DNA of 64,000 bases from Sipunculus nudus. Taxonomy: Eukaryota > Annelida > Sipuncula > Golfingiida > Sipunculidae. A program made the position numbers and the translations under genes. This document shows, piece by piece, positions 1,578-62,729 of the stretch. The stretch lies in the NCBI GenBank assembly GCA_026874595.1, contig CM049313.1, positions 70,548,659-70,612,658 on the forward strand, read 5' to 3'. Each line of letters opens with the position of its first letter. The first letter of the stretch is position 1. The notes beneath the pieces were generated by a model. That model saw only the letters and a program-made list of their open reading frames with translations, was not told where the DNA came from and searched no databases.

Positions 1578-3994
1578 GTTACCACCAGCAACAGGGTTCT
1601 AGTCATACATTATCAGTAGCGCCAGGGCTCCAGATATATATTACCAGCAGGGACAGGGTTCCAGTCATGTATTATAACTTGGGACAGGACTCTAGTCATA
1701 AATTATACCTTGGGGCAGTGTTCCAGTCATATATTATCACCAGGGACAGGGCTCTAGTCATATATACTTTCACCAGGGACAGGGTTCCAGTTGTACATAA
1801 CCACAATGGACCAGCCACAAGTCATACATTACCACCAGTGACATTGCTCTAGTCATACATTACAACCAGGGACAGGACTCAAGTCATTCATTACAACCAG
1901 GGACTGGGTTTATTCATACATTACCAGCAGGGACAGGGCTCTGGTCATACATTATGACCAGGGACAGGGCTCTAGTCATACATTATTACCAGGGACAGGG
2001 CTCTAGTCATACATTATTACCAGGGACAGGGCTCTAGTCATACATTACCATCAGGGACAGGCCTCTTGTCATACATTATGACTAGGGACAGGGCTCTAGT
2101 TATACATCACCAGGGACAGGGTTCTAGTCATACATTACCACCAGGGAATGGCCTCTAGTCATACATTACCACCAGGGACAGGGCTCTAGTCATTCATTAC
2201 CACCAGGGACTGGGTTTAGTGATACATTACCGCCAGGGACTGGCTTTAGTCGTAAATTTCCACCAGGGACCAGGCTCAAGTCATACATTACCACCAGTGA
2301 CAGGGCTCTGGTCATACATTACCATCAGAGACAGGGCTCTTGTCATACATTATGACTAGGGACAGGGCTCTAGTTATACATCACCAGGGAGAGGGTTCTA
2401 GTCATACATGACCACCAGGGACAGGACTCTAGTCATAAATTACCACCAGTGACAGGGCTCTAGTCATACATTACCACCAGAGACAGGGTTCTAGTCTATC
2501 ATTACCACCGGGACAGGGCTGTGGTCATACATTACCATCAGGTCCAGGGCTCTAGTCATACGTTACCACCAGTGACAGGGCTCTAGTCAACATTACCACG
2601 AGGGAAAGGGCTATAGTCATACATTACCACCAGAGACAGGGCTCAAGTCATACATTACCAACAGGGACTGGACTCTAGTCATACATTACCAACAGGGACT
2701 GGACTCTAGTCATACATTACCAACAGGGACTGGACTCTAGTCATACATTAGCACAAGGGACAGGACTCTAGTCATACGTTACCACCAAGTACAGGGTTCA
2801 AGTCATACATGACCACCAGTGACATTGCTCTAGTCTTACATTACCATCAGGGATAGGGCTCCAACCATATACTATACCTAGGGACAGGGCTCTAATCATA
2901 CATTACCACCAGGGACAGGGCTCAAGTCATACATTACCACCAGTGACAGGGCTCTAGTCATACATTACCACCACGTCCTGGACTTCAGTCATACATTACC
3001 ATCAGGGACAGGACTCTAGTTATACATTACCACCAAAGACAGGGCTCAAGTCATACATTATCATCAGTGACATGGCTCTAGTCTTACATTACCATCAGGG
3101 ACAGAGCTCTATATTATCACCATGGACAGGGCTCTTGTCATACATTACCGACAGGAACTGGACTCTAGCCATACATGACCACCAGGGACAGGAATCTAGT
3201 CATAAATTACCACCAGTGACAGAGCTCTAGTCATACATTACATCAGGGATAGGGCTCAAGTCATATATTATCACTTGGGCAGATCTCTCGTCATATATTA
3301 TCACTTAGGGCAGGGCTCTAGTCATATATTATCACCAGGGGCAGGGCTCTATAGTCATACCATTTCACCAGATACAGGTCTCCAGTCATATATCACCAGG
3401 GACAGGGCTCTTGTCATATATTATCACTTGGGGCAGAACTCTTTGTCATATATTATCACTTGGGGCAGGGCTCTAGTCATATATTATCACCAGGGGCAGG
3501 GCTCTATAGTTATACAATACCACTAGATACAGGTCTCCAGTCATATATCACCAAGGACAGGGCTCTAGTCATATATTATCTTCAGGGACAGTGCTGTAGT
3601 CATACATTACCAGGGACAGGGCTCTAGTCATACATTACCACCAGGGAATGGACTTGTCTTACATTTCCACCAGGGACTGGACTAGTCATACATTACCACC
3701 AGGGACTGGACTCTAGTCATACATTACCACCAGGGACAGGACTCTAGTCATACATTACCATCAGGGACAGGGATCTAGTCATACATTACAACCAGGGACA
3801 GGGCTCTAGTCATACATTATTACAAGGGACAGGGCTCTAGTCATAATTTACCATCAGGGACAGGGATCTAGTCATACATTATTACCAGGGACAGGGCTTG
3901 TCATACATTATTACAAGGGACAGGGCTCTAGTCATACATTACCATCAGGGACAGGGATCTAGTCATACATTACAACCAGGGACAGGGCTCAAGT
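1578..3994. repeat. 31-bp minisatellite array, about 78 copies
   Basis: The unit is close to ACCAGGGACAGGGCTCTAGT followed by CATACATTACC. Spacing measured between neighbouring TCTAGTCAT words near 1971-2007 is exactly 31 bp. Copies diverge by substitutions (ACCACC/ATCACC/AACACC, GGGCTCTAG/GGACTCTAG). A subfamily with TATATTATCACTTGGGGCAG occupies about 3255-3560. There are no unique spacers, so this is a plain tandem array. It starts and stops abruptly and lies beyond the probable 3' end of ZC3H3. Confidence 0.95.
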
Positions 3995-5198: not shown

Positions 5199-8100
5199 TC
5201 AGCTGCCTAGGATGAATCGAGGGTGAATGTGTAAAGTGTCATCCAGGGTTTCTTCTCTTGGAGTCCTCTGTGGTGGCGTCTCCATGACATCACTGTCACC
5301 TAATGCTATGAACGCTGGGAGGACTCGATCTTTCATGGGCAGGTGGCGATCGTCAGGAAGATCATCACTGTGTTGGACATCCTGGCTCCTCTGTGCATCC
5401 TTGGTTGCCGTTGCTTCCTCATCTACACTTTCTTTCCACCTCTTGGTGAGACTGAAACAAAATCACCCAGTTTATCAAATTTGCTGTGCAATATTACAAA
5501 ATTAAATATGTTGCTAAATTTAAATACCTTTGTTACGTTTGCTAATTTCTACAGTTTTTGTCTTTTGCCTAAAATACAATCAAGACTGCCCAATAATGAA
5601 TTATATCAAACATATTTCTGTGCCAATCTTTGCTTTAGAACTGATTTTATATTGTAAAACTGTCCTTAAACTTGTTAAGTAATCATGCCAATCACCTTAT
5701 TTTTTGTACTGTTGCCCAAAATGCTAAACTAATTTGTGGAAAAGCCTGCAATGGTAGGTGAACTTCAGAAAAAAAACCACTTGAAACATGGCAGTCCATG
5801 GCAACAACACTAACATATTCTAAAGATTAGCTCAGAGTACCTTGGGGTGAGATAAAGTGGTTGTACACTACAGTGATTCTATATCTGCTTTGATCAGACA
5901 GCTGCTTTGTTTAGCCAACTTTGCAGGGTTCTGGCACCAGGGCTGGCACAGGGAAAATCAGAATCTGCAGTGTATAACTGCTGCATAGTGAGTGTAATTT
6001 ACCTGGAAATTGAACTTTTCCTAGATGAAGATGATTTCAGTTTTCTTTTTTTCAGCTGTACATGCCTCATGCGACAGTCCTTCCCCTTGGCACAGGACCC
6101 AGATCTGACAAATTCTGGACACACAAGGGTGTGTTTCTTGGTACACTGTCAAACAGAACATTCATGAAAGAGTTGCAAGTTAAGCTGATAATGAAGTTGC
6201 TGCTCACAGCCACTTACACTTAGCTACTAAAAAAGAAAGGATAGAAAGTAAAATTAATAAAATAATATGACCCATTGCACTGACATGTTCCTTGAAACTC
6301 TGGAATAGAATATTCTGCAAAAATTGTTACTTTGTCTTCAAAAAATCTTGATGAAATTTCATTATTATATAAGTCACATTTGTTCTTACACAATAGAAAT
6401 TGAACCACCAGTATGATCTCAGTTATTTGAACATGACAGCTTAAATTCAAAATTCTGCAAAAGAAAAAGAATAATTTGGATTTTGTCTTAATAACATGGT
6501 ATTATTATTGCAAAATTCACATAGTTCTTACACAGGAGAACTTCAATCATTAAGATGATCTTACATATCTGAACATTTATCTGAAAATCAAAACATGGAA
6601 CCAAAAATAACCCAGTTTAACTAAACAGATAAAATCACATGATGATTTATGTGCAATATGTCAGGTTGCTTGTTTTTAATCATATTTACAGTTAATTACA
6701 GAGATTATCGTTTATCTCCACCTGATGACATCAGCAGGCTGTGAGGAGAACTATCATAGTCGCTGATACATGCATCTCCTTGTGAAACAATGTACAAGAT
6801 AAGCATTTCTGTACACTGAATAAACGCAAACATAATGTCTTAAGAGAAGGGAGGAAATGTATATGTAGGCTACTCTGTATAACTGCTTAAATATTGTGAG
6901 AAAGGATACATTAATATATTGTGCACATTCCTGTTTATACTTAGTAATATCCCATAGATGTATCTATGCTATTACATCTGCCATGGATGACTGTAGATTT
7001 CACCATCCATCTAAGACAGCAGTTCACATTTAAATCTCAGTACAGCACAGCTGTTAATGCAATTTTGTCTTAATCTCTGCACATTCAGTGAGGGTGTTGG
7101 TCTTGTAGTTAATGCTTTATGTTAATATAAGGATCAAGATATTTTTTCGAGACTTGCCTTTGTCCCTTTAGGACAGTATCCCTTCAAGAAGTCCTGGCAC
7201 ACTTCTGCATCCTCTCTGACCTTGACGTGGAGGTATGGGCAGTCGTCTCGTACACACAAACCCTTCAGGAAGTAAGTACACACTGGCATTTTGTCTGGTG
7301 ACACCTTGTGGGAAAACGGACAATTATTTCCATGGCAGGTGCCCCTGAGAAATCTGAAACAAATAAAAAATATAAAAGAAGTAATACACATGTAAGTAAT
7401 GACAATCTGATCAAAGCAAGGTTATAGGTTCAAACATATAGGTTCTAATTAATGTTGGGACTGATGATTGATTATAAATCGATGATCGGTCGGCTGAGGG
7501 AGACGATCGGATGATGCATCTTGCATATTTATAATTGTTTATAGAGTTTTTCACAAAGGCTTTAAAATGAGGGATAGTATGGTTTCATAAATAAAATTCA
7601 TGTGGAAAAACTTGAGAACAATATGTGTTTGTTAATAGATTCACGCCTAAGTTTAATATATACACATGAAGGCTATAGAGTTATTACATATATTAGTCAA
7701 TATTAGGCCTATAGATCAATTGATAGCATATACAGGTCTATATTTGATCTGAAAAGTCACACTCCTAGAGGTCCACCAATCTTTACTGATTACTTATCAT
7801 GAAATTAAAACTGATTCCGACACTTCTCAAAAGTGACTAATAACTGATCACACTTGAAGAATGAAAAGGTTTAATAAAGTAGCTTCAAAACCAAAAGTAA
7901 AATGAATACTCCTTAACCTGTCTGACTGTAAATGACTTAATACTCATACAGGTGTCAGGTATACTGGTGGCAAAACGGCAAACTCCTCACCTTGTACATA
8001 CTGCCACCTTGTCTGGATCATGGGTAAAAGGACACTTGTCTCCACGGTTACACTTGCCAAAGCGGTTATAGAACAAGCAGTAGGGTTTATTCTTCTTGGT

Positions 8101-11100
8101 GACATGAGACAGTTTGTGTTTGTTCACAGCTGCTGCCCGTATACTTCTTTGCACAACTCGGCTGTAGTGATTTTTTTTTCATAAAATTATTGAAACACCA
8201 CATCAAATCATGCATAAATTTCCCAAATTCATGATTAAATTCAATGAAACTCAATAATAATCATAGGATTTAATATCCTGCATTGAATTTCAGAGATTAT
8301 GAAGTAAACTACTGGTTCTGAATTTATAGTTTAAAAAAAAAGTTCAATTTTTACAGATAATCTTATATGAATAACTGTCACAATCTCTCAATATATCATG
8401 AGATTTTAGTCATGTATCTCAATGAGACTCTGGTATATTACATAACACTGTTGAAATGGAACCTTTAAAACTGGATATGCCACATACAAGTCTGAAGACA
8501 TTTAAACGACTGACCTTGCTAACATTTGTGTAACAGACTGTGTTGGCCCCTTTTTTGCTTGTGTTGAACTAATTCGTCGGTTGGTATTTCTCTGATCTGT
8601 TAAATAAAGAAAAAGACATAATCAAAAGTAAATAAATAAATACATCTAAATACTTTATAGCTGTATAACTGTGTCATGCTGTCAGAATGACAGGAAGGTT
8701 GTGTAACACTGGAAAATCAGGTGAACCATGGGTCATGTTGCTCAGCTAACGGCCAGCACCACATGCGACACTAAGGATTTATATCAACTGAGAACATTCA
8801 TATATTACCAGTGAATATCTCCAAGATAAACATGCACAGTCAATCCAATCAACCTATACTGATACATTATATCATTTGAATCAATTCTTTACTCAAGTTT
8901 GATGTATTATAATTATACTGTCAGTAACATTTATTTAATGAACTTGTTAGCCAAATATTTCACAAGCATTATACAATGGCAGGATTCATAGGAATATATG
9001 TCTGACTGTAGTATATTGTTCAATTATATGATCTAAAGCAAAACACACGACTGCTGAGCTTTCACTGTGACGTGACTGTCTTGCAGTTGATCTGAAAATG
9101 TATTGAAATTGAAAAGTAAAACGGCACCTGTGTGCAGGGCAATACCTGCTCTGTTCAGGGAGGTCTTGGATCGGTGATATGGGACTCCTCTGATGAAGAC
9201 TGTTTGTCTAAGGCTTCCCCTCCTCGTCATGGTCAGCCTCCTGATAATACACAGGTGTACTTTTATATAATATTGTAACAGTTTTGTGATATGTGATACA
9301 AAAAATACAAGAGATCTATAAAAATAGAGAAAATAAGACTGTTCCATTCTGTAAAAATTTTAATTTCATCACTGAAAATGACAAGCACCTTTCAAGGTAT
9401 ACACTGATAAAAAATGGCCTATAACCTCTGACAGCAACACAAGAAATTTATATAAGTATTTACCAGACTTTCTTTCTTGAAACAATGTTATCACCAACAT
9501 TAACCAGTTGATCAAATCTCTGGATCTAATATCTACATTAATCAACATTTCCAGTTTTAAATGTATAATATGTTAATAGTAAAATTAAATGTTACATAAA
9601 GGGCTTAGAAAAGTAGGAGCAAGGGTATGTGCAGGTCTAGTTTCTGGGGGATAAAATGACACCTGAGCATGGATTGCACACCTATCATACCTGTAATCAC
9701 GTCATGCTCTACCTGTCTGCAGTATCATACTCTACCTTTGTGAACTGTTGTGGTGCATCTTTCTCATGCGACTTTGGTGAGACAAGGAACTTGCACTCTT
9801 TGGTGTAACAAATTTGTACTTGTTCTTGCTAATGTTGATCACCCTTCTGCCTAACAGGCGGTTTATATCCAGAGTTCCATCTGCTAATATAAAACCATGA
9901 TTGAATACAATTTTTTCATAACAAAATAATGCTGTTTTTTTTTCTAAACGTCATTAAAAATCTGTCAATCAGCTCAAAATGTAATATAAATCATTTCAAT
10001 CAATAATTCACAAATGATGAATATTTCTTTCTGGGGAAGTTAACACTATAATGTGTACTGACCATGGGCAAAAGGCAAACATGTCTGACAGCAGCACCAA
10101 AGAGTGAAAACGAAATACAAACAAAATTTACAATGATAAGGGTAAATCTACTACTGTATTATACTGTATATTTATTTTTCTTATTGTTTATGACCAACTG
10201 GAGATGGTACCTTTGAGAGTTCAACTTACCTTTATTACCACGATGGGGCTTGAACCTATTATCAACCTTGTGTGGGCTGTGTGACGCCTTGTACACAGTG
10301 TGTTGTTGAAGGCCAGGTTTGATGAACCCATGTTTCTGTGACAGGATTATCTGTGTATGATACGTCCTTCCTCTCTTACCTCTGCCAGGATTACTATATT
10401 GAGTTGCACCACTCTGGCTTGAATTAAATCTCAAATTAAATCTTGTTGTATTTTGTGACACTTTCAAGGCTTTTTTCACCAACTTGTAACGTGACTTGAG
10501 CTTCACAGAGACTGCAGCTGTGTGGTGCAGAGACTTCAAGACTGCTGCTGCTTTCAACACCGGACTTTTAATAACACTGCTCCCTGATGATGACCTTGAC
10601 CTACGGATGAATGAGTATCTGCTGGAAGGACCATTTCCTGTCCCCTTATTTGCTGATCCATGCACTGGCTTCTTGACTAGTTTATATTTTGAGCACTTGA
10701 CAGTTCGCTGCCCCATTGGGGACTCCATCTGGCCTAGGCGAGTGATGGGAGATTTTCTTTGTGTGATCAGGAGGGAAAGAGCTGCGGGAGCAGTAGAAGA
10801 CCGCCGGAGACCTCTGTTGGAATCTCTGAACACTTCCTGCTGTGCAAGATGACCTGCTCTCCTGAACACTGTGCTATGCTGTGGAGCTAAGAGTCTTGCA
10901 TTTTTATCCATATTATCTAATGTCATTTCGGTACTTGATTTGCTGGGGGATTGTCCTGCAACCCATTTGTACTTTGACCCACTTTTGGGGGACCCATGTG
11001 TTGTGAATGTAAGATTTGATTCTTGCACAGGGTTGGAGCTGTGCTTTGTAAGCTTATAAACAGACCTTGTGATGGTCTTACTGGGAGATCCCTTCTTGAC

Positions 11101-14100
11101 ACTAGAGCCAACAGCCGACACTGTCCTCGCATGATTAATTTTATCATGAGATGGTTTCACAATGATTCTTTTTGATGTACTGCTTGATGAAATGCCTTCA
11201 TTAGTCTTGGATACCACAGTCTTATTAGCTTTATCAGCTGCAGTCAACCTAATTTTTGTGCCTGATATACTGTTTTTAGCTTTGGTCTGATCAGCACCAA
11301 TTACTGTTCTGGCAATATTTGATAAGGAAGTTATGTTGCCAGATTTGTTTGAAGGATTAGCAACACAATTTGATATTTTACCCTGTGATTTAGCAATATT
11401 TGCTTGATGAAATAAGGCATGTTTCATTCCCTTGGCAGCTTTCTTTGCCTCCACAGGGCTGGTCAAACTTAGATCTTGCTGCCCAGTAATGCTAGGGCTC
11501 ATAACGAGCTGTCTGATGACTGGTGTGGTCAAAGTATCAGGAATACCGGCAGAACCTAGAGCTCCGGATTTGTCCCTGATTGATGTTACTGGTGCTGCCC
11601 TCTTGGGAACATCACTGCCAGATGCGACTGGTGGTGCCCTCTTCAGTGTATCAGTGACAGCAAATACTGGTGTCTTTACCACTGTTATTTTCTTGTTGAT
11701 ATCACCACTAGATATCACTGGTGCCATCCTCTTGGGTGTGTCATTAACCTGTTTTCCTGCTTTGACTGATACTTTAATATAGTCAGGATTACTTTTCCCT
11801 AATACTGCATCTTTTTCTGCATCTCCACTGGTTGCCCCAACTCTCGATGGAGATAGTTTGGCTGATGATAATTTTGTAACACTGGCAATCTGACCTGTTT
11901 GGCCAGCCACACTATCACAGAGGTGAACACTCACATCAGGCTTGGCGTTTGATGGTGGCACGACGATCCTGGATGAAACTGTTCCCACTACATACTTGTT
12001 AGGTATATTGATAATTACACTCCTTTTTCCATCTGCTGTTACTGATTTAGCATTCGTAGCTCCAATAAACTCCCCACTACTTTTTGGCAACACCTTGCGC
12101 TTGAGTTCCTGAGAGCTTTGGGTAGCACCTACATTGTTTTTTGCTATTGATGAGGTAGATTTCCTGAAAGATTCTGTTACACTCTGATTTCCTGCAGGGT
12201 TTCTGTGTACAACATGAGCAGAATGGGGACCACCTATTTTCTGGCCGCCTGGCTGAGGTGTCTTGGTCTCAGTATTTGTCAATAAACTGTGTGTGACCCT
12301 AACCTGACTAGCTTTGCCTGGATCACGTACATATCTGTATTTGCTGCTGGTGCCAGCTTGCTGCCTGGGACAACTTTCATAATTCTGTGAGGTAGTTTGA
12401 TGGGTTCTTATGTTTATGTCAGTTAATTTGGTAAAGCTATGAGGATTACCTGAACTGGCCCTATACTTTCCAGGAACACTTGCTGTGGTTTTAGTACCGT
12501 TGTGCACAGAGTTCACTTGTCTGCCACCAGGTGCCACTACAGTACGCTGCTGACTACTTTGGTTTTGAATTACTAATGCATTTGCCCTGGACCTTGGTGG
12601 CTGGATTTTTGTTTTCTTGTGTTGACTGATAAGTGCTGTAAAAATGAAAATAACATACAATAAAAGTTTACAACATCCCAATATCCACACCTCATGGAGT
12701 TTTGTATTTACTGGTCTGATGGTTTATAATGGGTGGTCTGGGTAAAATCATCAGATCTGACCTAAGCCCCCAAATGTCTTAGGATAGAACCCAAGGCTCA
12801 GCATAAACTGAAATATAATAAAAGTGCAGTACTAAACCTGCACAGATGGGACAACTTAAAATAAACTTTATTTATCTTACACGGGTTGTGCCACTAGTTA
12901 TAACAATTTATACAAGGCACTCTCCATGGCATGGATGGTGGCATTTGGAAGTCTGTCGAGGTGGAGAGGACTCTGAGAAAACCACCTCACTCTCACAGCC
13001 ATGCAGGGGATTGAACCCAGGCACCTGCCGAGAGCGCCGATCATTTTACCCCACAACGCTCCAGGCCTCCTTTGATCTGCATGAAAGAGAGTGTGATTGA
13101 TGAAATACATGTTCAGTAACCTCGAATAATATCAGTCACAATGAAAAAAACTGAAACACAGAATACAAACATTTTCTAGGATACTGAATTAATAATTCTT
13201 TTTAAAAATATTGGGGGGGGGGGGTATTTATTCTCTCTTAGATCATTCAGTATTATTTATTTGGCGCCGTCATAAAGTACCTGATGGCTCCACAGAAAAT
13301 TTTTGTAATACCAGAAAGAACTCAAAGAGACCATATTAAATATATATACCTTCCTTTACATTCTGGATCACCATAGATATGTGAAGTTCCAGGCTGTATT
13401 ACAAGGATCCTGACCATACCATGGTATTTGTTAAGTAAGCCCAGAAAATACAATACTGGTGGAACATGTTTATAAACTTAAAGGTGCCCATTCACCTACC
13501 TTTTGAAAAATTATTTATGTGATTTCTGGCTTCCTCTCTGTATATATTAATGATCTAAGGGTAATTTTTATTGTGAAAAGTTTTTATTTATAAGGCCTTC
13601 ATGGAGGATGTATGAGCTTATTTATTAACAACGTTTGTAAAACCAGCAATGTTGACAATTGGAAAAACATGTATCCTCCGGTGGTAGGTTGCATACTATG
13701 CAAAGGTAGAAAGGTCACAACTACTGTGAAAAAAATAACATACACAGGAGCGTGAACCAAGATTATAGTCTGTTCCACTATTGACCACCCCTGTCCACCT
13801 AATTTTGGCAATTATCCCCACAAAAGACAAACTTGTCAAATGAAAATTACACCGATGGCAGGAAGAGGGAAATGCTTAATTTTTGGTACCCTACCAACCT
13901 AGGATATAAAATTTACTTCCTTTACGGCCTGGCTGAATTCTCATGTTTATCTGTGGTTCATGGCTTCCCTAACAAGTGGCCATTGTTTATCCTCCTTAGA
14001 TATGGATATAAGGTTATGTGACGTAACAGTGAAATGCGTGCACCAGGAAAATACAAGTGTCACTGTAAACAGAGGTTGGCAGCTTTTCATTATTGGTCCT

Positions 14101-43200: not shown

Positions 43201-46200
43201 CAAATTCTGATATATCTCAAGAAATCTTGCATGGATTGATCCAAAAATCAACTTGACTGAAGATCTTAGATAGTGTTGTTAATGTATGGTGCCACCTGTT
43301 ATCCTTTTCTTGTTTTCGTGATATTTAATACCCCCATTATTGCCACATAACAGTACTGTGAGCAGTATAAGTCAAAAACTAATATACAGATGTCTTTCAT
43401 ATTATATAATACAATAGACATGGGTTATGGGATGATGTACATTTAATTTGGGGTCATGACCTTTCCTTTGAGAGTGACCTTGACCTTGAATATTGCCATA
43501 TGTGGTGAAAATCACACTAAATCATGAATATCTCAATAAGGGATGCATGCATTGGGCCAAAAATTAAATTGACCAAAGATTTTGGAAGCATTGTCTTTTG
43601 CAGATGACAGGTGGCGCTACCTTCTGTCTTTCTCTTGTTTTCATGCCTTTTAATACCCCATCATTGCCACTTGACAGTACTGTGAGCATTATAAGTCAAA
43701 ACTTATTGACAGATTGGGCTGAAATTGTGCATGTACATTGATCTTGGATACCTCCATCTAGTATTCAAGACTGGTGGTGCCATCTGCAGACGTTTGCCGT
43801 AGCATCCATCTGTACATGTGCTTTGGGTGGAAATTGCTCATATCTCCAGAGTAGTGCAAGGTATTGGTCTGAAATTTTACATGTCCATCCATCACAGAAA
43901 TTTTCTCGTAAAGCAGACAGGTGGCGCCACCTACCTTCCCATTTTTGTAGAATAAATTAATGCCCTTTTCTGAGGAGTGATTTGCACTATTGGCCTGAAA
44001 TTGTGCATATTTATAGATCTTTCAATCCTCCATCTTTTACTTAAGACAGGTGGCGCCATCTGCAATCGTTTTGCTGTGGCGTCCATCTGTACATGTGCTT
44101 TCGGTGAAAATTGTTTCTATCCCTGGAGTGGTTTAAGGTATTTGTCTGAAATTTGGCATGTCCGTCCATCTTTGAAAGGTTTCTCATAAAACAGACAGGT
44201 GGCACCACCTACCTTCCCTTTCTTGTAGAATAAATTAATGCCCTTTTCTCAGGAAAGATTTGGCCTATTGGCCCAAAATTGTGCATATCTATAGATCTTG
44301 GACTCCTCCATCTTGTACGCAAGACTGGTGGCGCCATCTGCTATCGTTTTGCCATAATGTCCACCTGTATATTTGTTTAGATGAAGATTTATCATATCTG
44401 ACGAGTCCTTCAATGTGTTGGTCTCCAATTTGGCATGTACATTCATCTTTGAGAGTTTTCACGTCAACCAGACAGGTGGCGCCACCTTCCTTACCATTTT
44501 TATAGTATAAATTCATCCCCTTTTAATAAGAGTGATTCTCTTTATTGGCCCCAATATTTGATGAAAATTATTGTTTCACAAGTTGATAGATGGAAGAAAC
44601 AATAGTCGCTTGCCAAATGTCATTATTTGCTGCTGAAGATGGGGGGACTGTTCTTAAAGGGGGGGGGGATTAATTTTCTGGCGATACTATGGCACCCGCA
44701 GATGCCAAGAAATATCTAGTTTTAATATTATAGTATGGACTGGTCCCTGATTGAAGAGTGCCTGGTGTTTATCTGTATTCCATCTTCTTGATTAGAGGTT
44801 CTTTCATTTACAGAGAGCTCCATGTCTGATATAAATGAGGTTCTCCAGGCTTTGCCTTCTCCTGAGTTGAAGACGCTGGCCAAATCGTTACGACTTCAGA
44901 CACAGGGTCAGCGTGCAGAAATCATTGAAGCTGTGCTCCAACACTCCAAACAGAATAACATCACGTCATTCTTCTCATCAAAAGGCAGTGGAATGGAGGC
45001 AGCTGTGTTAAAACGGTATATGGTGTCCTGGCCAGACAGTATTTAAAGACAAATATTTTATACGTTCTTAAATATACCAAGATTTATAACTCATACCAAT
45101 CATTAAAGATCACATAGTATTTCCCACTGCTGCAAAAAAAAATCAATGTTTGACTTACAGTAGACAGGCAAGTTGCATTAAACTTTTTCATGGTCAAGTC
45201 ATAGTGTACCAAAGCTTTTAAGTTATAAAACTGGGTTCTCAAAATGATTTGAATGTATACAAAGGCAGTATCTACACTAACAAATAATTGTGAATTAGTT
45301 TATTCTTGTCTCCACTAGGCAACTAATCCACATCAGTTCAGTTTACTGTAGTCTTCTTGAAAGGTGGTCTACAGTTGTTCTGTTCACCTTAGTCTGGTTC
45401 AAAGTAAACTGGTTCCTAGTGCTTACTGTATGCCTTACAGGTAAATCCATGTCTAGTCAGCATGAGGCCTATTTAGCTTCCATTTTGCCTACTAGTAATT
45501 CTTCCCCTGAAATGTCACCTTTGGCAGCACTATGAATTGTATTAATGACGAAGTGCCAAAAGAAACTCACATTTTATGAAATGAACGGAAGTAGGCTTTA
45601 GTAAAGCAAATTACACTGCAGTTGTAAAGCTGAGCTACTTTGAGGCTTGAATAAACTGGTTCAGTATAATCTAATTTACATGCAAACCAGGTGCAGATAC
45701 AGTCAAATACATCAACGTTATTACAGCTACCAAGTAATATAATATACTAAAGCATACACAACCAAGTAAAAAAAATTACTGAATGGCTTATACAGTAAAT
45801 GGAACTAATGTGAAACAAGTGAAACACAAGTTTTCTGACATGCCAGAAACCTTACAATCATTTGCTAGGTCTGCTCACTCACATATTCACATGTAATTAT
45901 AATCAACGACCAGTTGCAGATCCCTTGCGATTTTAGTTGCATCGTGTCACAGCCAAATGGGCAGTGAGCGGCATGCTTAAGTGACCAGCTTTAGTGACGG
46001 TGACTTGCATCGTTACAGTGGGTGCCCAAAACTTTCTTTTTGGTGCGTCTTTGCACTTAGACACCCAGTATTTTGGACACTTGGCCAGGGCGCTTCTTAG
46101 TCAAAAAGACTTCAAGACTGACAGAATTGCTATTTATTTTGATTGTTTTGCCACAAAATATTCAATATGACTGTGCAAACTTGAGTTATACATCAATTAA

Positions 46201-49200
46201 CAACATTATATCATGCCATCTGCAGGCTTAGTGATGGGTACAGTATTTGTAAGTTCATGCCTGATTATTTTATCAGAGCTAAAAGTCTGCTGGGATCCTG
46301 CTACAAGCTGGTCCAGGAGGGACGTGCCGTGTTCATCCGGATTGTCATGCTGTTCTCAGTCCATCAAGTTACAGGCGAGGAAGATGAGCAGGGAGGAGGG
46401 CAGCAGCAGCTGTAAGTTAGCCATAATGAATACAGGTGGTGGGCAGCAGCTGTTAGTTAGCCAAAATGAACACAGGTGGTGGGCAGTAGCTTTTGGTTAG
46501 TCATAATGAACACAGCGGTGGGCAGCAGTGGTAAGTTGCTGTATTGAACACAGGTGGTGGGCAATAATTGTAAGTGAGTTATAAAGTCCCAGCATAAAGC
46601 TATCCTATTCCATTTTACCAAAACTGACTTACTGGTCTTTTTAATCCATAATGAAGTCAACAGTTATAATGAAGACAGGTGGTGGGCAGTAGTTGTAAAT
46701 TTGTCATAATGAACCTAGGTGGTGGGCAGCAGCTGTAAGTTAGTCCTAATGAACACAGGTGGTCACAGCAGCTGTAAGTTAGCCATAATGAACACAAGTG
46801 GTGGGCAGTGATATAAAGTTAGCCATAATGAACAGGGGGGCCAGTATTTGTAAGTTAGTCATTATTAACACAGGTGTCAGTAGCAGGAGCTGTAATTTAG
46901 AGTTGAACACCTGGGGCAAGCAGTTGCACCAGTAAATTAGTCGTAACAAACTGAGGATGTTTCTAGGGGGAGCTGTAATTTATCCAAAATGAAACAGGAG
47001 GTTAAAAGCAGCTGTGCTTTAGTCATAATGGACACAGGAGATTGACACCAGCTGTAAGTGAGTCAAAATGAAACAGGAGGTTAAAAGCAGCTGTATGTTA
47101 GTAAAGAATGGACACGGGAGATTGACATTTGTAGGTTGAGGTTTATAATGAACACAAATGGTTGACAGAAGCACCTATAAGTTAGTCATAATGAACTCAG
47201 GATGTTGCTGATGGGAGCTGTATGTTAGTCATTATTGACACAGGAGATTTACACCACCTTTAAGTTAGTTACAAGGAAACAGGAGGTTAAAAGCAGCAGC
47301 TAATTTATGTAAAATATACTTTCTTCTAATATTAATTTTCTATTACAACAGGTTCCAGATTTTGATGTCAAACATTGGAAAGATGGTCTACCCAGCTTAC
47401 ACTGTCAACCGCCACACCAAAATTTTTTCATGTCGACAGGACTTGCTTAGGTAACTTTTAAGTTGTCTCATCCAAGATTACTTCACATTTTGTAAACAAG
47501 ATGTGTATTCAGACCTTTCCACATCCCATAAATGTTCTCCTTCACACAAAACCCTTATGTTGAATATCAGAATATATGATGAAGAAGTAACAGTGCTGTG
47601 GAGACACAGACTGTTTGTCTATGGTTCTCACTGAAATGTTAACATTCTTTGGTTAAGCCTGCACTCCAGTGTCTTGTAAAGTAGTAATGGAATAGTACAT
47701 GGACTACCTGAAGTACAGGAGATCATTTATGCAGTTGTAAACCTGGGTATATGTGAAGTCTTTGTATCCTGGTGCAGTTAGTATACATTTAGTTTTCAAT
47801 GTAGGTTTGAGACAGCCCTGCTAGTAGAGTCTGACATTCGGGAAGCCATGGAGAGAAATGACTTTGAGACAAGCCTACAACTGTATGAGTCCACTAAACC
47901 CATAGCAGAACAAATTCTCCGGGATCCAGACACCATCAAGTAAATATCTGAATTGTTTTCAAATCAGTATTTATGTGACCGTATGTAATTGGGTATTTCA
48001 GTGCCGCAGCATATTCTATGTAAAACATGTTGTTGCTGTTTGCAACCTGGTGTTCAAGTTTGATTAATTTTAAACTTTATTTTTGTTCAGGATCTTAAAG
48101 TGAAATACGTAGTAAATAATTTAGTTGAACTGCTGTACATGCACATCTTCCTACTTTTTCAGTGAAACATTTTAATATAGCATTCATTAATGTTCATTTG
48201 TTATCTCCAGTCAGACCTGAAATAATGTTACAAGGACCTTAGTTTCCTCAGGTTACAGTATATGTTAAACCTTGAACATTGTCCTGGATACACAGTTACA
48301 CATGTCAACTCAACTAAAATAAAACATGAAAATACTTTAAGAAATGATAAAAAATAAACAAATTACTTCATTATTAGGGCCCTTCTTGACAAGTGGTGCC
48401 CTACAGTGATCACTGTGTCAGTCCGTCCTTCCATCTTTCCGTCCTTCTGTCAGTGACACTTTCTTTCGCGCGCTATAACTTAACAACAGCATACTTAAGC
48501 TTTCCCACATTTACAGGGATGATTGGTACATATGAGGGCTCCAGACCTATCAATTTGCAGACCTGTCTCAATTCCAATATGGCCACCACAACCCAATTGC
48601 TGATTTTTTTTCACCCGTGATAACTCAACAACAACATACTTCAACTTTCCCAGATTCGCAGGGATGATTGGTACTTTACAGACCTGTCAGAATTCCAGTA
48701 TGGCTGCCACAGCCCAGTTGCTAATTTTTTTTCGCCTATGATATCTCAGTAGTAACATATTTCAGCTTTCCCAAACTCACAGGCATGATTGGTACATATG
48801 AGTGCTCCAGACCTATTGAATTACACACCTGTCGGAATTACAATATGGCCACCACAGCCCAATCACTGATTTTCTTTCTTTTTTCTTTGATATTATTTGA
48901 ACAAGTAGAACTTTTTCCCTCATGGATATGGATAAATACCTAATTCTGTTTGTCACATTTTTCAACTTAAACCTAAACTTTTCACCCATATGTAAACTAG
49001 TCCAGCACTACCAGAAATGTGGGGCCCTCTGAGGACCATTGTCCGACATCTAGTTTTGTAATTAAGATCTTTCAGAAATGTTGCTGGTTTGGAGAATGAT
49101 GGTTACAAATACAAGATTTATGGGTGGTCGGCTAACTGCTGAAGTGGTAGTAATATTTGTTAACAGACATGTATCAAGTCTACCAAAGCACCTGAAGTCA

Positions 49201-61829: not shown

Positions 61830-62540
61830 ATGTATATGTAGGTTGTGCCACCTACCACAAATGCAGAAAGCTGTCACATAAATTTAGGTGGCACTACCTG
61901 CCAAAAAAATTGAGAAAGCAATCCAAGATGTATAAACATGCAAAATCTTTAGGCAGATAAGTCAAACCACTACAGAGATATGAGTGATTTTAGCCCATGA
62001 CAGACAAACTGACAGACACTGTGCATAAATGGTTGCAGGTGGCCCCTCCAGTTTTGTGTGATAAAGACCTATGTGATATCTATACACATGCAAAATTTAG
62101 GCCCAATCGGTCAAACTGTTCCTGAGATATGAGCTTGGATGTCTGCAACATAAACTAGAATGTAGGTGGCGCCACCTGTCACAAAATCAAGAAAGCTATC
62201 CATGATGTATAAACCTGCAAAATTTAAGGTGGATATGTCAAATACTGCCGAGATATGAGTGATTTTATCCCACGGCAGACAAACAGACAGACCCTGTGCT
62301 AAAATGGTTGCAGGTGGCGCCACCAGTTTTGTATATGATGAAGAGCTATGTGAGATCTATAAACATGCAAAATTTTGGCCCAATCTGTCAGACAGTTCCC
62401 GAGATATGAGCTTGGATGTCTTTAGCGTAAACGTGAAAGTAGGTGGCGCCATCTGTCATAAAATCCAGAAAGCTGTCCATGATGTATAAACCTGCAAGAT
62501 TTTAGGTAGTTATGTCAAACCACTACAGACATAAGAGTGA
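61830..62540 (-). repeat. GGTGGCGCCACC array, second locus, inverted
   Basis: The palindromic word occurs at about 62164, 62313 and 62442 and a decayed form at about 61838; equivalent positions are about 280 bp apart. On the minus strand the units align with those in FAN1 intron 2, through shared words such as GCATGTTTATAGATCT and ATTGGGCC. It lies in the last intron of the RING-ligase gene. Confidence 0.7.
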
Positions 62541-62558
62541 TTTTAGCGGTAACGGGAA

Positions 62559-62729
62559 CTCTCGGCCCCAGAGACACTCGTCCCAGAGACACTCGGCCCC
62601 AGCGACTCTCGGCCCCAGAGACACTCGGCCCCTGAGACGCTCGGCCCCAGAGACACTCGGCCCCTAGTCAGCAGGACCCAGCGACACTCGGCCCCGTCCA
62701 GTCGCCGCCCCCAGAGACACTCGGCCCAG
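62559..62729. repeat. GC-rich 16-bp minisatellite (CTCGGCCCCAGAGACA)
   Basis: About ten copies of a 16-bp unit with point changes (GAGACA/GCGACT/GAGACG), the last ones broken by insertions. It stands out as a sharp GC island in AT-rich DNA. A related pair of segments with AACCCCTC and CCGTAG words follows (62755-62870). Confidence 0.85.

Follow-up and report, generated by a model that had tools for sequence, protein, structure and literature searches.

Tandem repeats that span an exon/intron boundary were named mirages in the lancelet gene Adh3 and then found in globin genes (PMC3087553), with PGBD5 and troponin C as further lancelet genes of this kind (PMC3902484); in the parts of these reports at hand, mirages are described from cephalochordates (PMC3087553, PMC3902484). 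The same parts indicate that Adh3 data and RT-PCR of globin genes suggest regular splicing to be undisturbed, and that mirages show instability in length as well as somatic instability (PMC3087553). A human array in a similar position is the VNTR in intron 18 of ABCA7, for which splicing, polymorphism and disease association have been measured: its 25-bp unit opens on the exon-18 donor GT, alleles span ~12 to 427 units, and splicing does take place at a decoy located one unit downstream, resulting in an out-of-frame product (PMC5954066). In addition, minisatellite expansion at exon edges has been described in human segmental-duplication genes, where it can alter gene structure and activate cryptic splice sites (PMC2812944). 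As lancelet mirages appear to be silent while the ABCA7 decoy is used, both silent and functional outcomes have precedents.

We describe here an array of this type in FAN1, within a 64-kb stretch of DNA that was analyzed as a whole (hereafter the window). Similar to the mirages of Adh3, BflGb6, BflGb9, PGBD5 and troponin C, the FAN1 array is built of a tandem unit that spans the exon/intron boundary, with many units carrying splice signals (in FAN1, six GTAAGT beyond the real one), and its unit of ~40 bp overlaps with the 10-72 bp reported for Adh3. The array lies on the donor side, as in BflGb9, whereas BflGb6 repeats its acceptor side, and the FAN1 units are more diverged than those of BflGb6 (81-100%). 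As in the ABCA7 VNTR, the units are found at the 5' end of the intron, with the real donor GT residing in the first unit and being repeated downstream; however, the FAN1 unit of 40 bp includes 16-24 nt of exon, whereas the ABCA7 VNTR starts at the donor GT, with an exonic part unmentioned in the available portion of that report. Splicing and instability of mirages have been observed in lancelets, and the segmental-duplication cases are recent primate paralogues with transcript support, whereas the FAN1 array is described here from the sequence of one assembly. At 1.43 Gb, the genome with the FAN1 array exceeds the ~0.5 Gb of lancelet genomes, and it therefore probably belongs to a different group of animals. 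In a literature search for FAN1 together with intron 4 and tandem repeat, no such array appeared in titles or in the opening lines of abstracts, and the phrase 'mirage minisatellite' retrieved no publications. Lancelet mirages and ABCA7 are earlier instances of such arrays, to which FAN1 adds a further one. With good confidence, we regard it as a mirage-type intronic minisatellite that grew from the end of exon 4 and is now decaying, being tolerated rather than selected as a regulator. As such, it would represent a clear, diverged example, probably from outside lancelets, of an array that arose from the splice donor of its host gene, and would provide a natural test of how, among many near-identical donors, the spliceosome keeps selecting the first; if the decoys are used, it would be a parallel to ABCA7 in a DNA-repair gene.

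Gene model and anatomy of the array

FAN1 is encoded on the + strand of the window. A hand-joined peptide of exons 4-7, from 46277 on, matched human FAN1 PDB chains with E = 4.2e-43, and an ORF further downstream contains a VRR-NUC domain match (Pfam, E = 8e-12); exon 4 refers to the numbering used in this analysis. The features of the exon and of the intron that follows it are:

46277..46411, + strand: FAN1 coding exon 4 (exon model; 135 nt; translation AKSLLG...GGGQQQL)
last ~16-24 nt of 46277..46411, + strand: exon-derived portion of repeat unit 1
46412..46417, + strand: real 5' splice site GCT|GTAAGT, spliced in phase to 47352, the first base of exon 5
46396..46580, + strand: proximal units 1-5, with donor positions 46412, 46452, 46492, 46531 and 46570 (TRF, nhmmer, unit placement)
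46670..46950, + strand: units 6-12, with donor positions 46695, 46735, 46774, 46814, 46850, 46892 and 46933 (TRF, nhmmer, unit placement)
46951..47297, + strand: distal units 13-20, with donor positions from 46975 to 47260 (TRF, unit placement, alignment to unit 46735)
47311..47351, + strand: 3' end of the intron, no units detected by profile search, acceptor ...ACAACAG

Because exon 4 comprises 46277-46411, the GT of the real donor begins at 46412; the intron after exon 4 thus defined, 46412-47351, has a length of 940 bp, and exon 5, from 47352 on, continues the phase of exon 4. Given the exon length of 135 nt, skipping of exon 4 would preserve the reading frame.

Tandem repeat analysis with TRF divided the intron into an array of 40-bp period at 46403-46876 and another of 39-bp period at 46971-47297, with the 40-bp row reaching a score of 239, whereas 66 was the highest score among 200 resamples of 46403-47351 under a first-order Markov model. 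An nhmmer profile made from the array yielded 17 matches with E < 0.01 in a search of both strands of the window, all of them on the + strand between 46404 and 47284; outside the intron, the best match in the window had E = 2.3, and the minus strand gave none below E = 1. We placed 21 unit positions, the donor-homologous base of which runs from 46412 to 47300, at a spacing of 36-46 bp except for one gap of 125. In alignments to unit 46735, all but two of the 20 other units (18) beat the best of 500 background 45-mers; units 47131 and 47300, the latter being the 21st, did not exceed that best and are doubtful. Distal units displayed in part a 79-bp, two-unit periodicity. The array consensus is GTGGTGGGCAGCAGCT|GTAAGTTAGTCATAATGAACACAGG, with the bar marking the donor position; this consensus and the unit positions therefore place the beginning of the array within the exon, its first donor inside the unit and its end ~50 bp before the acceptor, with ~20 diverged copies of ~40 bp occupying most of the intron. 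The first-pass annotation, which had the 40-bp unit start in the last codons of exon 4 and take in the donor, is borne out by TRF, nhmmer and unit placement alike. Mean pairwise identity between units is ~0.62, and neighboring units are hardly closer at 0.645, a divergence that does not suggest rapid recent turnover. As a separate observation, a 20-nt unit-like piece in intron 3 (46236-46255) is absent from the profile matches listed and was taken as chance.

Source of the copies and the 77-bp insert

The end of the exon that falls within the unit, GGQQQL, aligned ungapped to GGQGQL of human FAN1, a match that is short and glycine/glutamine-rich. Since the alignment is ungapped on both sides, we surmise that the exon end probably goes back to ancestral coding sequence, from which the copies derive. 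Among 21 boundary 60-mers from a subset of the FAN1 exon edges (11 donors and 10 acceptors), adjacent copies were found solely at the exon-4 donor, the 60-mer of which had 13 matches, with the nearest copy removed by the self filter; the exon-1 donor and exon-2 acceptor 60-mers had one distant minus-strand match each, in a comparison where the random control was noisy (a non-self match in 86 of 200 60-mers) and where the exon-7 acceptor 60-mer was positioned ~22 nt too far downstream, with the true site likely still within the query.

We also searched the organism's own genome (G000; 1.43 Gb in 153 contigs) with 46398-46900, the first 503 bp of the array, using a method that skips very common words and for which counts are lower bounds. 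At least 4 matches were obtained, comprising 3 within the array and one 77-bp match on contig C5 that covers the insert described below; with this query, the unit was not found elsewhere in the 1.43 Gb. The minisatellite background was sampled in 23 fetched loci (L005-L027; 228,902 bp) and the window, with L001-L004 excluded; L005 is the C5 locus, whereas L006 and L007 flank the window. At a period of 15-300 and at least 2.5 copies, TRF reported 42 rows, some of them overlapping, and GTRAGT was present in the unit of 3 of these, all three in the FAN1 intron; among the 39 other rows, there was no second array with a GTRAGT donor core.

These results bear on the notion that an ordinary dispersed minisatellite spread into the FAN1 intron by chance, which we consider highly improbable. 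Such repeats are common, as 35 of the TRF rows, in part overlapping, come from the 228.9 kb of fetched loci, and look-alike units, as judged from unaligned consensus units, exist at two distant loci (L017 and L020); against this, the FAN1 unit holds FAN1 coding sequence that can be aligned to human FAN1, a genome query with the initial 503 bp of the array uncovered no other copy of it, and its GTRAGT core sets it apart from all other rows. The same array in unrelated places had been named in advance as the outcome that would speak for a dispersed repeat, and the genome search with the 503-bp query did not reveal one. The array was most likely seeded from FAN1's own exon edge, as the shared coding sequence suggests.

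We infer the mechanism of amplification and its history to be as follows: 1) slippage or unequal exchange would have duplicated a stretch of ~40 bp, made up of the end of exon 4 and its donor, in tandem into the intron; 2) duplications of one unit and of several units would have led to growth to ~20 copies; 3) a single 77-bp insertion would have been taken up by the array, with decay presumably ongoing. The lack of a profile match in the last ~40 bp of the intron fits with addition of units at the donor side. This same stretch also weighs on the alternative that the mirage route gave rise to the whole intron, whereby an exon edge with AG|GT signals is duplicated in tandem, a model that has been proposed for the lancelet globin BflGb13 in the part of the report at hand (PMC3087553). 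While the array does make up most of the intron, there is no detectable unit at the acceptor end, and we deem intron gain very unlikely. Growth of the array from the end of exon 4 into the intron is the reading that we follow below.

The insertion and its flanks are:

46577..46584, + strand: 8-bp target-site duplication AGTTATAA, left copy
46585..46661, + strand: 77-bp insert, interrupting unit 5
46662..46669, + strand: 8-bp duplication AGTTATAA, right copy

When the flanks are joined without the insert, a whole unit is restored, and that stretch of the array therefore predates the insert. An insert-like piece of 74 bp with 84% identity is found on contig C5 (L003 1504-1577), and the 77-bp insert is likely a short mobile element. 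Duplications of 8 bp are typical of hAT-type elements; by eye, no terminal inverted repeat was apparent in the 77-bp insert.

Decoy donors: regulator or tolerated passenger

Exact GTAAGT occurs 7 times in the intron, at the real donor and at 46531, 46570, 46735, 46774, 46850 and 47054, as compared with a mean of 0.9 upon resampling, in which 7 was reached in 0 of 2000 trials. Coordinates and scores of individual decoys are:

46531..46536, + strand: strongest exact-GTAAGT decoy, GTG|GTAAGT (PWM 5.41; U1 duplex -9.1 kcal/mol)
46735..46740, + strand: decoy matching the real donor across 9 nt, as do 46774 and 47054

With an approximate donor PWM, the real donor scored 1.88 (U1 duplex -5.4 kcal/mol), with 46531 and 46570 above and 46850 below this value; the GTGAGT sites at 46574 and 47058 also exceeded the real donor. 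For 26 intronic GT sites (28 at a looser cut), the calculated U1 duplex equaled or exceeded that of the real donor in stability; these include GTGGTG sites and some out-of-register duplexes. Across nine other introns or stretches of FAN1, the corresponding density was ~4.2 sites per 940 nt. With respect to RNA folding, the first five units showed no gain in stability over shuffled sequences (z = -1.21; 22 of 200 shuffles equaled or surpassed them), and the whole of 46381-47351 was less stable than its shuffles (z = +1.10; equaled or surpassed by 18 of 20), and hence a structure that hides the decoys is not indicated. Predicted accessibility was 0.35 for the real donor vs. 0.45 for background, and 0.84 and 0.85 for the decoys at 46531 and 46570, respectively. 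Recognizing that decoys equal or surpass the real donor by two simple scores and that the real donor is not more accessible, silent tolerance is not obvious, and the decoys, going by these motif-based scores, are potentially competent as donors.

Translation past the real donor reads ...GGGQQQL*, with CT|GTAA being read as CTG TAA. As the TAA is met at once, every decoy product would be truncated, whatever the copy number. Two earlier claims, namely that at least six downstream units keep a GTAAGT core and that decoy use adds in-frame stops, have thus held up, the former by six exact copies and a total that no resample matched, the latter by the immediate TAA.

These features raise the question of whether the decoy ladder is a working regulator, in which competing donors would give rise to premature-stop products and copy number would set the level of FAN1. 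Several points speak for it: 1) of the six exact GTAAGT decoys, three share the 9-mer of the real donor and two have a higher score; 2) reading past the donor leads to an immediate stop; 3) in ABCA7, a donor within a VNTR unit is used, and VNTR length is tied to splicing and expression in the available part of the report (PMC5954066). However, the match to the consensus in the 20 non-authentic units was 0.83 for the six columns of the donor core vs. 0.82 for the other intronic columns (permutation p = 0.45), a comparison that counts gaps as mismatches and is confined to the intronic part, which was aligned with gaps and is not comparable with the ungapped exonic part; the donor core accordingly displays no excess conservation. 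The +1 G was kept in just 14 of the 20 units, and the +5 G likewise in 14 of 20; in addition, the units are diverged, with recent homogenization not apparent. As for ABCA7, the same available part reports VNTR length to be without effect on nonsense-mediated decay, and lower expression was not ascribed to those isoforms (PMC5954066). The array is decaying and its decoys are without visible maintenance. We thus view a working regulator as unlikely; tuning of FAN1 by copy number, which the first-pass annotation had put forward, is conceivable but finds no support in a donor core that has eroded to the same degree as the other intronic columns and in an array this diverged. A live length-dependent switch, whereby a longer array would allow decoys to lower FAN1 and thereby render repeats, its own array included, less stable, strikes us as extremely unlikely, even though, if true, it would couple a repeat-stability nuclease to a repeat within its own gene.

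For an array that grew from the end of exon 4 and is now tolerated, we postulate that the real donor is most likely used in most transcripts and the decoys at most occasionally, with each decoy use leading to a premature stop and probably to removal of the transcript through nonsense-mediated decay; the array would persist because it is tolerated, rather than because it is selected as a regulator. Considering that minisatellites are very common in our sample, some would land on exon edges by chance, and the FAN1 case needs no special reason. As for the role of FAN1 in CAG-repeat stability, to which the first-pass annotation drew attention, no special link is needed, with similar arrays occurring in unrelated genes and minisatellites being common in the sampled genome; on present evidence, the connection is a coincidence.

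Other repeats and features of the window

Scans of the 64-kb window with Rfam and for tRNA genes returned 0 matches each. A CCCH zinc-finger gene lies on the - strand at 7134-12723, with Pfam CCCH fingers at 7134-7421; an 854-aa ORF upstream of these fingers had no Pfam match, and we take it to suggest a ZC3H3-like protein. Additional repeats in the window include a large 31-bp minisatellite at 1579-3994 (~79 copies with 78% matches by TRF) and two arrays of 277-bp period by TRF, one at 43713-44524 in the FAN1 intron before exon 3 and the other at 61881-62547, the consensus units of which have GGCGCCA-like stretches in common, as judged by eye from unaligned units. A 16-bp array (CTCGGCCCCAGAGACA) occupies 62561-62727, and about 0.5 kb past the window end (L007 539-705) there is an array whose unit, by eye, is the reverse complement of CTCGGCCCCAGAGACA. 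Lastly, the two distant look-alike arrays mentioned above have 22-bp units (L017 6436-6519 and L020 5109-5223, on contigs C4 and C6), and their consensus units resemble mutual reverse complements; they probably belong to a dispersed minisatellite family.
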